DNA of 64,000 nucleotides, taken from positions 124,001 through 188,000 of the forward strand of contig JAAXCX010000001.1 of the NCBI GenBank assembly GCA_013036105.1, given 5' to 3'. Below the pieces are notes generated by a model. That model was not told the origin of the DNA, ran no database searches, and saw nothing but the letters and a program-made list of their open reading frames with translations. This document shows positions 20,261 to 23,840 of the stretch, in pieces; the stretch's first letter is position 1, and every line of letters starts with the position of its first letter. The DNA comes from Vulcanimicrobiota bacterium (GTDB lineage Bacteria; Vulcanimicrobiota; Vulcanimicrobiia; Vulcanimicrobiales; Vulcanimicrobiaceae). The translations under genes were made by a program, and so were the position numbers.

Positions 20261-21184
20261 TCATAAGAATGCTCCTAGATCCAAAGCCGGCGAAAAGTAA
20301 TGCAGGCGCCACCCCGGCTTGAGCGCATCGAGCAGCAACGCTTCAGCGCCACCCAATGCGTAAAAGTTCACACGATCGTCGTCGGAAAGGGCTTTGGTTT
20401 CCAAGCGTTTGAGCGTACGCTCATACGTGGCCGCTGAATCTTGCGCCAATCCGGCGGCGTCCGCATCGGTCAGGAATGAGGGATCGCGCCCGTGTTCCGC
20501 GGCCGCTAGGCGCGCTACCATGATCTCGGTGTAGCGCGCGGTGCCTTCCTGCCAGCACTGGAAGGCGAAATACTTATAGTCGTCGGGTTTGAGCATCGTT
20601 TTGAAATGATCGCGCGCTAGCACGTACGCAGCCGCGTCCCTCCGAAACTCGTTTTTGCCGATCGCGCGAACCGCGCGCGCCAAAGCGTGCGTCATCGTGA
20701 CGTAGGTAGCGTTCGTCTTCGGATCCTTGTAAGGAAACGGATAGTTCAGCATCCACATCGCGTTGGTATCGCCGGGCGGCGCGAGATTCAAGGCCTTGAT
20801 CGTCGCAGTGTACTGCGGCCACGAATACTGCCACTGATGGAAATGCTCGTGCAGCAGGGTCACGCTCCAGCGGATCGGCGTGGAGGCCTGTGTAAATTGC
20901 GGTTCACCGATAACGATCGTCGGCACGCCATTGGGAAACGGGAATGTGGCTTCCAGCTGCGGCGGAAAAGACGGTATGGCAACCGGCTGCGGAAAATTGA
21001 TCGCTATCGGACCGGCCGCCGTCACCAAATCGACCGCAAACGGCGTCTGCGTCCAGTTCGGCCAGAGTTTGTCGCCGATGCGCTGCACGATCGCGGTGCT
21101 TAGCGCGATGTTCCGCATATCTTCGGGCGTAGCTGTCCCCGGCGCGGCGGTCGCCGCGATCAGGGTCAGTGCGAACAGCATCAT
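20261..21184 (-). CDS. exported HExxH metallopeptidase-like protein
   Basis: The 307-residue protein begins with a short signal peptide (about 15-18 residues). It contains TLLHEHFHQWQYSWPQY with the zinc motif H112-E113-H114-F-H116, and EGTARYTE at 213-220, where a Glu could be the third zinc ligand as in gluzincins. I do not recognise a named family. Its ATG overlaps the M56 gene's TGA by one base (TGATG), so it is the third gene of the BlaI-M56 operon and probably its regulated or partner product. Confidence 0.65.
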   Translation of the reverse strand: MMLFALTLIAATAAPGTATPEDMRNIALSTAIVQRIGDKLWPNWTQTPFAVDLVTAAGPIAINFPQPVAIPSFPPQLEATFPFPNGVPTIVIGEPQFTQASTPIRWSVTLLHEHFHQWQYSWPQYTATIKALNLAPPGDTNAMWMLNYPFPYKDPKTNATYVTMTHALARAVRAIGKNEFRRDAAAYVLARDHFKTMLKPDDYKYFAFQCWQEGTARYTEIMVARLAAAEHGRDPSFLTDADAAGLAQDSAATYERTLKRLETKALSDDDRVNFYALGGAEALLLDALKPGWRLHYFSPALDLGAFL

Positions 21185-22440
21185 CAGTTCTCCTTGCTGC
21201 GCGGCTCGGTGGTCATGAACGCGCGAAGATACCGTCCGTCCTCGAGCGTTCCGTTTACGTTCACGGTAAATGCGCTGATGCGCATGCCGCTATCCATCCG
21301 AACGCGCATCGATGCGCTGCCATGGGAAGTGCGCACGTCGTAAAAATATTCCATTGTGGCGCCTACGCTCAAGACATGGTTGATACGCAGACTCGTTATG
21401 GGGCCGAGCTGCCTGAGCACTGTCTCCGCGCGCCCGAAACCGTTGCCGTGATAGCGCCCGCGGCGCATGTCGTCATATAACGCTGCCACGCGCGTGTGCA
21501 CCGCGCCGTCATCCGGCGGAAGCGTGAAGGCTTGCGTGGCAACCGGCGTGAGCGCCCTGATTGCAAAGAATGTGGCCAGCAAGATCGCGGCATACGAGGT
21601 TGCGGCTGGACGCGAAAACGAGCGCGAGATGATTGCCGGCTGCAACAGTCGTTCTACTCGGCGCGAGAGCGTGCGGCGCGCGGCAAAGAGGCTCGGCGCC
21701 AGCGAAAAACGGCTAGCCCATGAAACCGCGCGCGCGAGGCGCGTCAACGACTCAGCATAAGTGATCGCATCGCTGCCGGCTTGCACCGCCGCGTCGTCGC
21801 AGGCGACTTCACGTTCCACCTCCGCCTGAACGCTGATCCAGCGCACTGCCGGATTGAAGAACATGAGCGACGCCAGGATATTCTGCAACAGTTTCGTCCA
21901 GTCGTCGTAGCGCTCCAAATGCGCGAGTTCATGCATCGCCAGCCGATCGAGCTCGGCTACCGGTAACGAGTTCACCAGCCATTCCGGCAACAGAATCAAA
22001 TCATCGAATAGACCGATGGCAACGGGAGTGTCCACGTCGGTGCTGACGCAGAGACGCACATCGCGATGGGTAAGGCCGCGATTGTTCCAAAGCGTCAGGC
22101 CTTCGCGCGCCGGAACATCCAATGGATAGGCCAATCGTTTGATGCGCGAGAGCGTCTGCGCAGCCAGGCCCGTGCGCGCCAGCAATATTGCTGCGCCGGC
22201 CACCCATGCGATCTCAATGGCCTGCAACAACCCTTCGGGAATGCGCAGCGAGATCTCCATCGGCGTCGTCAACGGGGGAAAGAATGCGCAGCCGATCAGC
22301 GCCGTCAGCCAGACAGCGTAACGCGTCGAGGCACTAACACGCGGCACGGCCCGCAATAGCAAACAGCCGGCCAACGCAATCAGCGGCGCTTGCCACAAGC
22401 TGTTGAGCAGCGCCGCTCCCAAGTAATCGTGTGAAGTCAT
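21184..22440 (-). CDS. M56-family (BlaR1/MecR1-like) membrane metallopeptidase
   Basis: The 418-residue protein has about four membrane segments: three before, and one after, the zinc site MHELAHLERYDDW (H170, E171, H174). This is the arrangement of BlaR1-type signal transducers, which cleave or inactivate a BlaI repressor. Instead of a penicillin-binding sensor it ends in a short domain of about 110 residues after the last helix (residue 310 on). That domain resembles the secreted protein at 7979-8449. Its ATG overlaps the BlaI stop (ATGA) and its stop overlaps the next start. Confidence 0.85.
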   Translation of the reverse strand: MTSHDYLGAALLNSLWQAPLIALAGCLLLRAVPRVSASTRYAVWLTALIGCAFFPPLTTPMEISLRIPEGLLQAIEIAWVAGAAILLARTGLAAQTLSRIKRLAYPLDVPAREGLTLWNNRGLTHRDVRLCVSTDVDTPVAIGLFDDLILLPEWLVNSLPVAELDRLAMHELAHLERYDDWTKLLQNILASLMFFNPAVRWISVQAEVEREVACDDAAVQAGSDAITYAESLTRLARAVSWASRFSLAPSLFAARRTLSRRVERLLQPAIISRSFSRPAATSYAAILLATFFAIRALTPVATQAFTLPPDDGAVHTRVAALYDDMRRGRYHGNGFGRAETVLRQLGPITSLRINHVLSVGATMEYFYDVRTSHGSASMRVRMDSGMRISAFTVNVNGTLEDGRYLRAFMTTEPRSKEN

Positions 22441-22820
22441 GACCGCGTCCTTGTCTTTTTCACGATGGCGGCTTCGAGTTGCGCCAACTCGGAATCCGTC
22501 ATTTTTTCTTCGTCAATCACGCGTAGCGCAAGCATGCTGCCCGTGTCGAAGAAACGAGAAACCAATTGCTTTACCGCCGAGGAAACGACCCGCTCGCGTT
22601 CGACCGCCGGCCGATAGATAATCGCGCGTCCGTGCTCGTCGCGGCGGGCTAGGCCCTTATCCGCTAGGATGTTGAGCCGCGTCTGCACGCTGTTGTAGCT
22701 CGGCCGCGGGGGCGGCAGCTGTTCGCGCACCTCCGCCACGGTGGCGCGTTTCTTACTCCACAGCGCTTCCATGAGCAGCAGCTCCGCGTCGGTGAGGGCA
22801 GAAGCCCGTTTTCGTCCCAT
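22437..22820 (-). CDS. blaI: BlaI/MecI/CopY-family repressor
   Basis: The 127-residue protein has a winged helix (LTDAELLLMEALWSKKRATVAEVREQL, residues 8-34, then YNSVQTRLNILADKGL) and a C-terminal dimer helix. In known systems the membrane peptidase encoded beside it triggers its removal from DNA. It is the first gene of the three-gene operon and faces two direct repeats just upstream. No beta-lactamase is in this operon; the class A enzyme is 8 kb away. Confidence 0.93.
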   Translation of the reverse strand: MGRKRASALTDAELLLMEALWSKKRATVAEVREQLPPPRPSYNSVQTRLNILADKGLARRDEHGRAIIYRPAVERERVVSSAVKQLVSRFFDTGSMLALRVIDEEKMTDSELAQLEAAIVKKTRTRS

Positions 22821-22830
22821 CGCAACCCCG

Positions 22831-22865
22831 AATTCCTTCGGAGTACTCCTAATTCCTTCGGACTA
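22831..22865 (-). promoter_or_regulatory. paired direct-repeat operator upstream of blaI
   Basis: AATTCCTTCGGAGTA (22831) and AATTCCTTCGGACTA (22851) are the same 15 bases with one change, spaced 20 bp start to start, about two helix turns. Each contains the imperfect palindrome TCCTTCGGA, and an AGTACT palindrome lies between them. Placement 11-45 bp before the blaI start fits autorepression. Confidence 0.6.
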
Positions 22866-22930: not shown

Positions 22931-23071
22931 ATGCGTGACATCAAGGAGCGGTTGTCTTTTTTATGGCTCTTCGCGCTACTCAACTACCTTTATGCAGACG
23001 TGGTCGCCCTGTGGGCTATCGAGTCGGCCTCACGTTCTGGTTGCTCTTTACGCCCCGGTTCAACGGAGTAG
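22931..23071 (+). pseudogene. probable DUF6326 membrane-protein remnant
   Basis: GGGAGG six bases before the ATG drives a 46-codon frame. Its first 28 residues (DIKERLSFLWLFALLNYLYA is the diagnostic part) match the N-terminus of small DUF6326-type membrane proteins. The match then stops and a short unrelated tail follows, although another frame of the tail encodes a hydrophobic VGLTFWLLF piece. An internal deletion is the simplest explanation. The family call is from memory. Confidence 0.45.
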
Positions 23072-23078
23072 CGGCACA

Positions 23079-23840
23079 ATGAGGCGGGCGAAATGGGCAT
23101 TTTTTCAGTTGCTGTTGGTTTCCGCCCTCGCGACAAGCCCGCTACGAGCTGAGGCCGATCCCTTCGTTGGGCAATGGAAGCTCGTTAAGCAAACCGATCA
23201 GATGACCGTGACGAAGGTCGGCGCTAACACATATGGGTTTGACTTCGGCGGCGGTGTCGAGACGATTGTGGTCAATGGAACCCAACAGCCCGCCAGTGCA
23301 GGCACTACGCTCTCCGTTGCCGCCGACGGACCAAACTGGCGGGTCGTACGCACGAAGGGTGGTCGAAAGATCCTCGCGGCGACATGGACGCTTTCCAAAA
23401 ACGGCAAATCGCTCAAAGACAACTACACGGCTTTCAGTCCAGACGGCTCGCCGTCGAGCGCCAATTATGTGTACGAGCGAAGGGCAGCCGGATCAGGTTT
23501 TGCGGGTCGGTGGCTCAGCGTAATAACGCCGCTCGGTTCGGAGATAACCCTGCAGGTCCGTCACTACGAGAGCAACGGCCTTTCCTTTGCCATCCCATCT
23601 CTGAGCAACTGGATTATCAACGCGAATTTCGACGGCAAGGAGCGTCCCAACGCGGGCGCAAGTTCTTCATCGTCGGCGCGGCGGCTAAGCGCGCATGCCG
23701 TGGAGATAACGCGCAAATCCAAAGGCAAGATCACACAGACTCGGCGGTTTGAACTTTCTCGCGATCTCAAGACTCTTACAATGATCGTGAATACGGTAGG
23801 CACTGACGAGCCGCTCATCTATATCTTTGAACGGCGGTAG
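23079..23840 (+). CDS. exported protein of unknown function
   Basis: A 253-residue protein with a clear signal peptide (FFQLLLVSALATSPLRAEA, about 25 residues). The mature part is predicted beta-rich and made of two similar halves that open FVGQWKLV and FAGRWLSV and close YVYERR and YIFERR, so it is probably an internally duplicated lipocalin-like domain. The longer frame from 22935 was rejected because it would translate the DUF6326 remnant out of frame. Role unknown. Confidence 0.6.
   Translation: MRRAKWAFFQLLLVSALATSPLRAEADPFVGQWKLVKQTDQMTVTKVGANTYGFDFGGGVETIVVNGTQQPASAGTTLSVAADGPNWRVVRTKGGRKILAATWTLSKNGKSLKDNYTAFSPDGSPSSANYVYERRAAGSGFAGRWLSVITPLGSEITLQVRHYESNGLSFAIPSLSNWIINANFDGKERPNAGASSSSSARRLSAHAVEITRKSKGKITQTRRFELSRDLKTLTMIVNTVGTDEPLIYIFERR

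Follow-up and report, generated by a model that had tools for sequence, protein, structure and literature searches.

A BlaI-M56 operon of a Vulcanimicrobiaceae bacterium with a putative non-penicillin sensor domain and a predicted exported gluzincin-type peptidase

Signalling of the BlaR1 type is known almost exclusively from responses to beta-lactams. The BlaI-BlaR1 systems of S. aureus and B. licheniformis and the MecI-MecR1 system combine a repressor of one family with a membrane gluzincin protease that has a full catalytic set, and their control region adjoins the repressor gene; in S. aureus BlaI the scissile bond is Asn101-Phe102 (PMC9834060). BlaI regulons in C. thermocellum are confined to one or few operons, one operon comprises BlaI, BlaR1 and two hypothetical proteins, and paired inverted repeats are described as a strict requirement (PMC8457756). 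The operon described here shares the repressor family, the protease type and the position of the control region with the classical systems but lacks a penicillin-binding sensor and a beta-lactamase or PBP2a output, in place of which it has another external domain and another output. It resembles the C. thermocellum BlaI_1845 and BlaI_0696 operons in its small regulon, in the association of BlaI and BlaR1 with extra genes and in the two upstream inverted-repeat operators but differs from them in that no HExxH peptidase is reported among their extra genes and in belonging to a different phylum (PMC8457756).

The window analysed is a stretch of 64,000 nucleotides from a soil-type Vulcanimicrobiota bacterium (GCA_013036105.1, contig JAAXCX010000001.1, positions 124,001 to 188,000). 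Three genes occupy positions 20261-22865 of its minus strand in the order blaI, M56 and HExxH gene, and their coordinates and overlaps agree with the first-pass annotation. The features are as follows, with the operator pair of the related locus L015 for comparison.

22846-22862, minus strand: operator-like dyad 1, TCCGAAGGAATTAGGAG, 20 bp from dyad 2
22826-22842, minus strand: operator-like dyad 2, TCCGAAGGAATTCGGGG
22437-22820, minus strand: blaI, encoding a 127-residue BlaI/MecI-family winged-helix repressor
21184-22440, minus strand: gene for an M56 membrane zinc protease of 418 residues, with the BlaR1-type protease and transmembrane part at about residues 1-304
21187-21516, minus strand: external domain at the C terminus of the M56 protein and its putative sensor, about residues 307-410, NTF2/DUF3887-like in the model
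20261-21184, minus strand: third gene, encoding a predicted exported gluzincin-type metallopeptidase of 307 residues
L015, 4261-4277 and 4301-4317: operator pair before blaI

The stop codon of blaI and the start of the M56 gene overlap in ATGA, and the M56 stop and the start of the third gene overlap in TGATG. None of the three genes encodes a beta-lactamase, as had been noted. A divergent gene beside the operator (22935-23840, plus strand) encodes a predicted exported protein of 301 residues or fewer that has no match in Pfam.

The repressor matches PF03965 (Penicillinase_R) over residues 9-119 (E 9e-27; 94.2 bits against a cut-off of 22.6), and the MecI structures 1okr and 1sd6 align with residues 8-121. 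In the alignment with MecI, Arg100-Val101 occupies the position of the cleavage site Asn101-Phe102, and the operon BlaI has R-V in place of the N-F bond that is cut in S. aureus. This counts against a switch that operates by BlaI cleavage. Asn-Phe is likewise absent at this position from the other BlaI sequences of the family that were compared, most of which have no Phe there, and its absence therefore characterizes the lineage as a whole rather than this operon.

The second protein contains a single recognizable family, PF05569 (Peptidase_M56; E 1.9e-26). In the alignment with S. aureus BlaR1, His201-Glu202-His205 and Asp210 correspond to His170-Glu171-His174 and Asp179, and Glu242, Asp246, Tyr261 and Arg294 correspond to Glu211, Asp215, Tyr228 and Arg261, so that every known catalytic residue of BlaR1 is kept (HExxH, ExxxD, the supporting Asp, the Tyr and the Arg). 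The BlaR1 autocleavage bond Ser283-Phe284 corresponds to Ser250-Leu251 here and to Ser-Phe in the L015 relative. The predicted structure (pLDDT 84.8) superimposes on BlaR1 (8exs_A; Z 21.7, 242 residues aligned, 2.7 Å), and by sequence and model the protein is a predicted BlaR1-type membrane protease with a gluzincin fold embedded in transmembrane segments. It is not a BlaR1/MecR1 beta-lactam sensor: the C-terminal class D-like SxxK domain of such sensors is missing, Pfam detects no penicillin-binding domain, and the score for the blaR1_generic profile, 66 bits, is below the cut-off of 400. The description of the first two products as a BlaI repressor and a BlaR1-like M56 protease that lacks the penicillin-binding sensor is thus sound. 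No M56 relatives were found in viral contigs.

In place of the penicillin sensor there is an external domain of about 100-110 residues, modelled as two helices and a five-stranded sheet. It has no Pfam match at E 10; the closest structural match of residues 307-393 is the DUF3887 protein 4hyz_A (Z 8.5, 87 residues aligned, 2.8 Å), followed by NTF2-like folds. The model was built from two sequences only, with a pLDDT of about 80, and the resemblance to the NTF2/DUF3887 fold is assigned with moderate confidence. In 148 genomes of the phylum, strong matches to the domain are confined to two operons, the present one and the one described below (E 2e-61 and 4e-65), the next best match being at 8e-5. 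Sensor swapping among BlaI-M56 pairs is, judging by domain content, common in the Vulcanimicrobiaceae. Other pairs of the family have the same adjacent BlaI and M56 genes and non-penicillin external domains, but those domains consist of pentapeptide repeats, belong to TonB_C or have no assignment, the operator sequence is different, and no HExxH third gene lies beside the pairs examined. Among the BlaI-paired M56 proteases of the source genome and of family members are those at L047 7606-9696, L051 442-2442 and L046 5327-7051, whose external part is either a set of pentapeptide repeats or a C-terminal TonB domain.

The HExxH sequence of the third protein, HEHFH, is at residues 112-116; Glu213 lies in a downstream WQEG motif, and Glu220 is also present, both at the positions given in the first-pass annotation. 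In an alignment of 27 sequences, the operon protein together with relatives from Vulcanimicrobiota/Eremiobacterota, Acidobacteriota, Latescibacterota, Krumholzibacteriota, Gemmatimonadota, Pseudomonadota, Bacteroidota, Planctomycetota and others, every row has HEHFHQ and either WQEG or WKEG; His112, Glu113, His116 and Glu213 are invariant (27 of 27) and Glu220 is present in 26. By analogy with gluzincins, Glu213 is the likelier third zinc ligand. No match to the protein was found in Pfam, NCBIfam, PDB sequences or plasmid annotations. The model is of high quality (pLDDT 92.5, pTM 0.90), and although Foldseek alone gave no significant match in the PDB, realignment with VIA-align separated a best group of 13 rows, at Z 6.4-9.9, from the remainder, which begin at 3.9. 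The 13 comprise M1 aminopeptidases, LTA4 hydrolase, oligoendopeptidase F, collagenase T and MATCAP, together with two uncharacterised putative hydrolase or lipoprotein entries. Because of these matches and the motif, the HExxH sequence, downstream Glu and predicted fold identify the protein as a putative metallopeptidase of the gluzincin type. It shares HExxH and the downstream Glu with M1 aminopeptidases, LTA4 hydrolase and the lipoprotein 3o0y, to which it aligns at Z 9-10, but is smaller than gluzincin peptidases and has no detectable sequence relation to them in PDB, Pfam or NCBIfam. These features point to a widespread, unannotated gluzincin family. The first-pass annotation described the protein as secreted, with its own HExxH motif; the motif is present and conserved, and export is likely from the N-terminal sequences, although less clearly so for the operon copy, which has a hydrophobic N terminus with no positive charge. 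Relatives in other phyla have normal signal-like N termini.

The two dyads upstream of blaI are nearly identical, each with the half-site TCCGAAGG, and the nearer one ends about 5 bp ahead of the start codon. The sequence TCCGAAGGAWTTMGGRG is paired before blaI in both operons of this type, the spacing being 20 bp in the source genome and 40 bp in L015. None of 100 shuffled versions of the window gave two matches at ≤3 mismatches, and the whole source genome contains only these two copies of the longer form at that threshold, in accord with the earlier report of a paired operator just upstream. A wider regulon in the source genome was considered and rejected on the same count. Across 99 genomes of the family, at one mismatch, the paired motif occurs only at the two operons, and around the other, single matches there is, out to about 1.5 kb, no homologue of BlaI, M56 or the third gene. 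Support for the dyad as a BlaI site comes from similarity only: a related dyad, CACCTAAATCATTAGGTG, lies upstream of another BlaI gene of the source genome and resembles CTCCTAAATCCTTCGGAG of L015. The paired dyads are thus a putative BlaI operator of an autoregulated operon that would control little else in the genome. A scan beside the operator found no terminator and no sigma-70-like promoter, the latter a point against the proposed switch.

A full-length third gene is present in 5 of 149 genomes of the phylum, the copy in G018 having an in-frame TAG, and BlaI and M56 genes lie directly upstream of it in two of the five, the source genome and G020 (isolate palsa_1516, locus L015), which belongs to a different genus of the same family. 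The three-gene order sought elsewhere therefore recurs but is rare (2 of 149). The proteins of the two operons are 60% (BlaI), 41% (M56) and 60% (third protein) identical, and the flanking genes are not common to them. In L015 the blaI and M56 genes also overlap, and the third gene begins about 30 bp past the M56 stop. Chance proximity of the three genes can be ruled out because the trio recurs in the second genus with the same sensor domain and operator. The two M56 proteins cluster in a tree (support 93/98). In the tree of the third gene, L015 branches first and the source genome groups with copies that have no switch, a topology that fits either an ancestral trio with at least two later losses of the switch or two independent joinings of the third gene to a switch. 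The third gene lacks adjacent BlaI and M56 genes in G003, G056 and G018 and in every homologue examined from other phyla, and it therefore does not need the switch. No BlaI or M56 remnants were detected beside it by tblastn in G003 and G018, and in other phyla no BlaI or M56 was found in the flanks of 24 loci (up to 6 kb, less at some contig ends). The earlier proposal that the third gene is under the switch is supported by the second genus, but the tie is loose: in most genomes that carry the gene it has no BlaI or M56 neighbour. Genomes G001, G002 and G005, of the same genus as the source, contain remnants of the third gene that lack the HExxH half; such decayed copies are found at L043 5000-5917, L044 6165-6575 and L048 7484-7882.

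Taken together, the operon is probably an autoregulated BlaI-M56 proteolytic switch in which the sensor has been exchanged and the output is a predicted exported peptidase. By analogy, chiefly with BlaR1 (PMC9834060), BlaI dimers would occupy both of the adjacent dyads, which overlap the start of blaI, and hold the operon off. Detection of a signal by the external NTF2/DUF3887-like domain would free the cytoplasmic protease site of M56, which would then cut BlaI and turn the operon on, producing more repressor, more sensor and the predicted exported gluzincin peptidase; the latter would act on proteins or peptides outside the cytoplasm, and once the signal had ended fresh BlaI would shut the operon again. 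Relatives of the third gene adjoin genes for M14, M28 or S33-type hydrolases and peptidases, which favors a switch of this kind, and because peptidase genes neighbour the third gene elsewhere, extracytoplasmic peptides or misfolded protein are a reasonable guess for the signal. In G003 the neighbour is an M28 peptidase, and the gene immediately upstream in G056 encodes an S33-related alpha/beta hydrolase. Of the self-contained stress switch proposed in the first-pass annotation, the self-contained BlaI-M56 unit with its own operator stands, but "stress" is interpretation.

The third gene could instead be a co-transcribed passenger of a real BlaI-M56 unit, with no functional link to the signal. 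Its usual occurrence apart from BlaI and M56, the many BlaI-M56 pairs of the family that lack it, and its decay in G001, G002 and G005 and interruption in G018 would all suit a passenger, but two genera whose operon proteins are 41-60% identical, and whose flanks are unrelated, share the gene order, the sensor domain and the operator, which argues against it, as does the TGATG overlap of M56 and the third gene in the window; we consider a passenger unlikely. A closer involvement, in which the third protein takes part in the sensing step by trimming the M56 external domain in the periplasm or by making the peptide that is detected, would give feedback, positive or negative, like that of a site-1 protease. 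Two proteases are co-encoded, and the genomes with the sensor domain are exactly the two that have the trio. There is, however, no cleavage-site or contact evidence for such a role, the third protein persists in genomes where it has no M56 neighbour, and BlaR1 of S. aureus needs no further component to cut BlaI (PMC9834060), all of which make participation in sensing improbable.

A response to beta-lactams or to the cell wall, in which the external domain would read fragments of peptidoglycan, is very improbable. The ancestry of BlaI and M56 is compatible with such a function, and a peptidoglycan fragment is reported to act in B. licheniformis bla induction (PMC3305447), but the operon has neither a penicillin-binding domain nor a beta-lactamase, and its output is a predicted peptidase. 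With respect to the switch with a swapped sensor, its layout is already known because the C. thermocellum BlaI operons show it (PMC8457756), and the bacterial family has many BlaI-M56 pairs whose external domains are of other kinds; the earlier claim of an undescribed unit therefore fails for the principle and holds for the list of parts. The new parts are the external domain, the gluzincin output and the pairing conserved across genera. A literature search with a limited set of terms found no paper bearing on M56 with BlaI in related phyla. The conserved operator makes a reporter assay simple.

Two other arrangements were observed around homologues of the third gene. In G056 a different BlaI-M56 pair (L041 11649-14150) lies about 3 kb from the homologue and is preceded by a gene for a small protein, predicted to be exported, in which visual inspection suggests a resemblance to the M56 external domain. 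In Krumholzibacteriota and Latescibacterota, genes for an M14 carboxypeptidase and a DUF2269 membrane protein are located upstream of the homologue in a recurrent three-gene arrangement (L016 3296-6990 and L018 3381-6981, and also L019 and L020).
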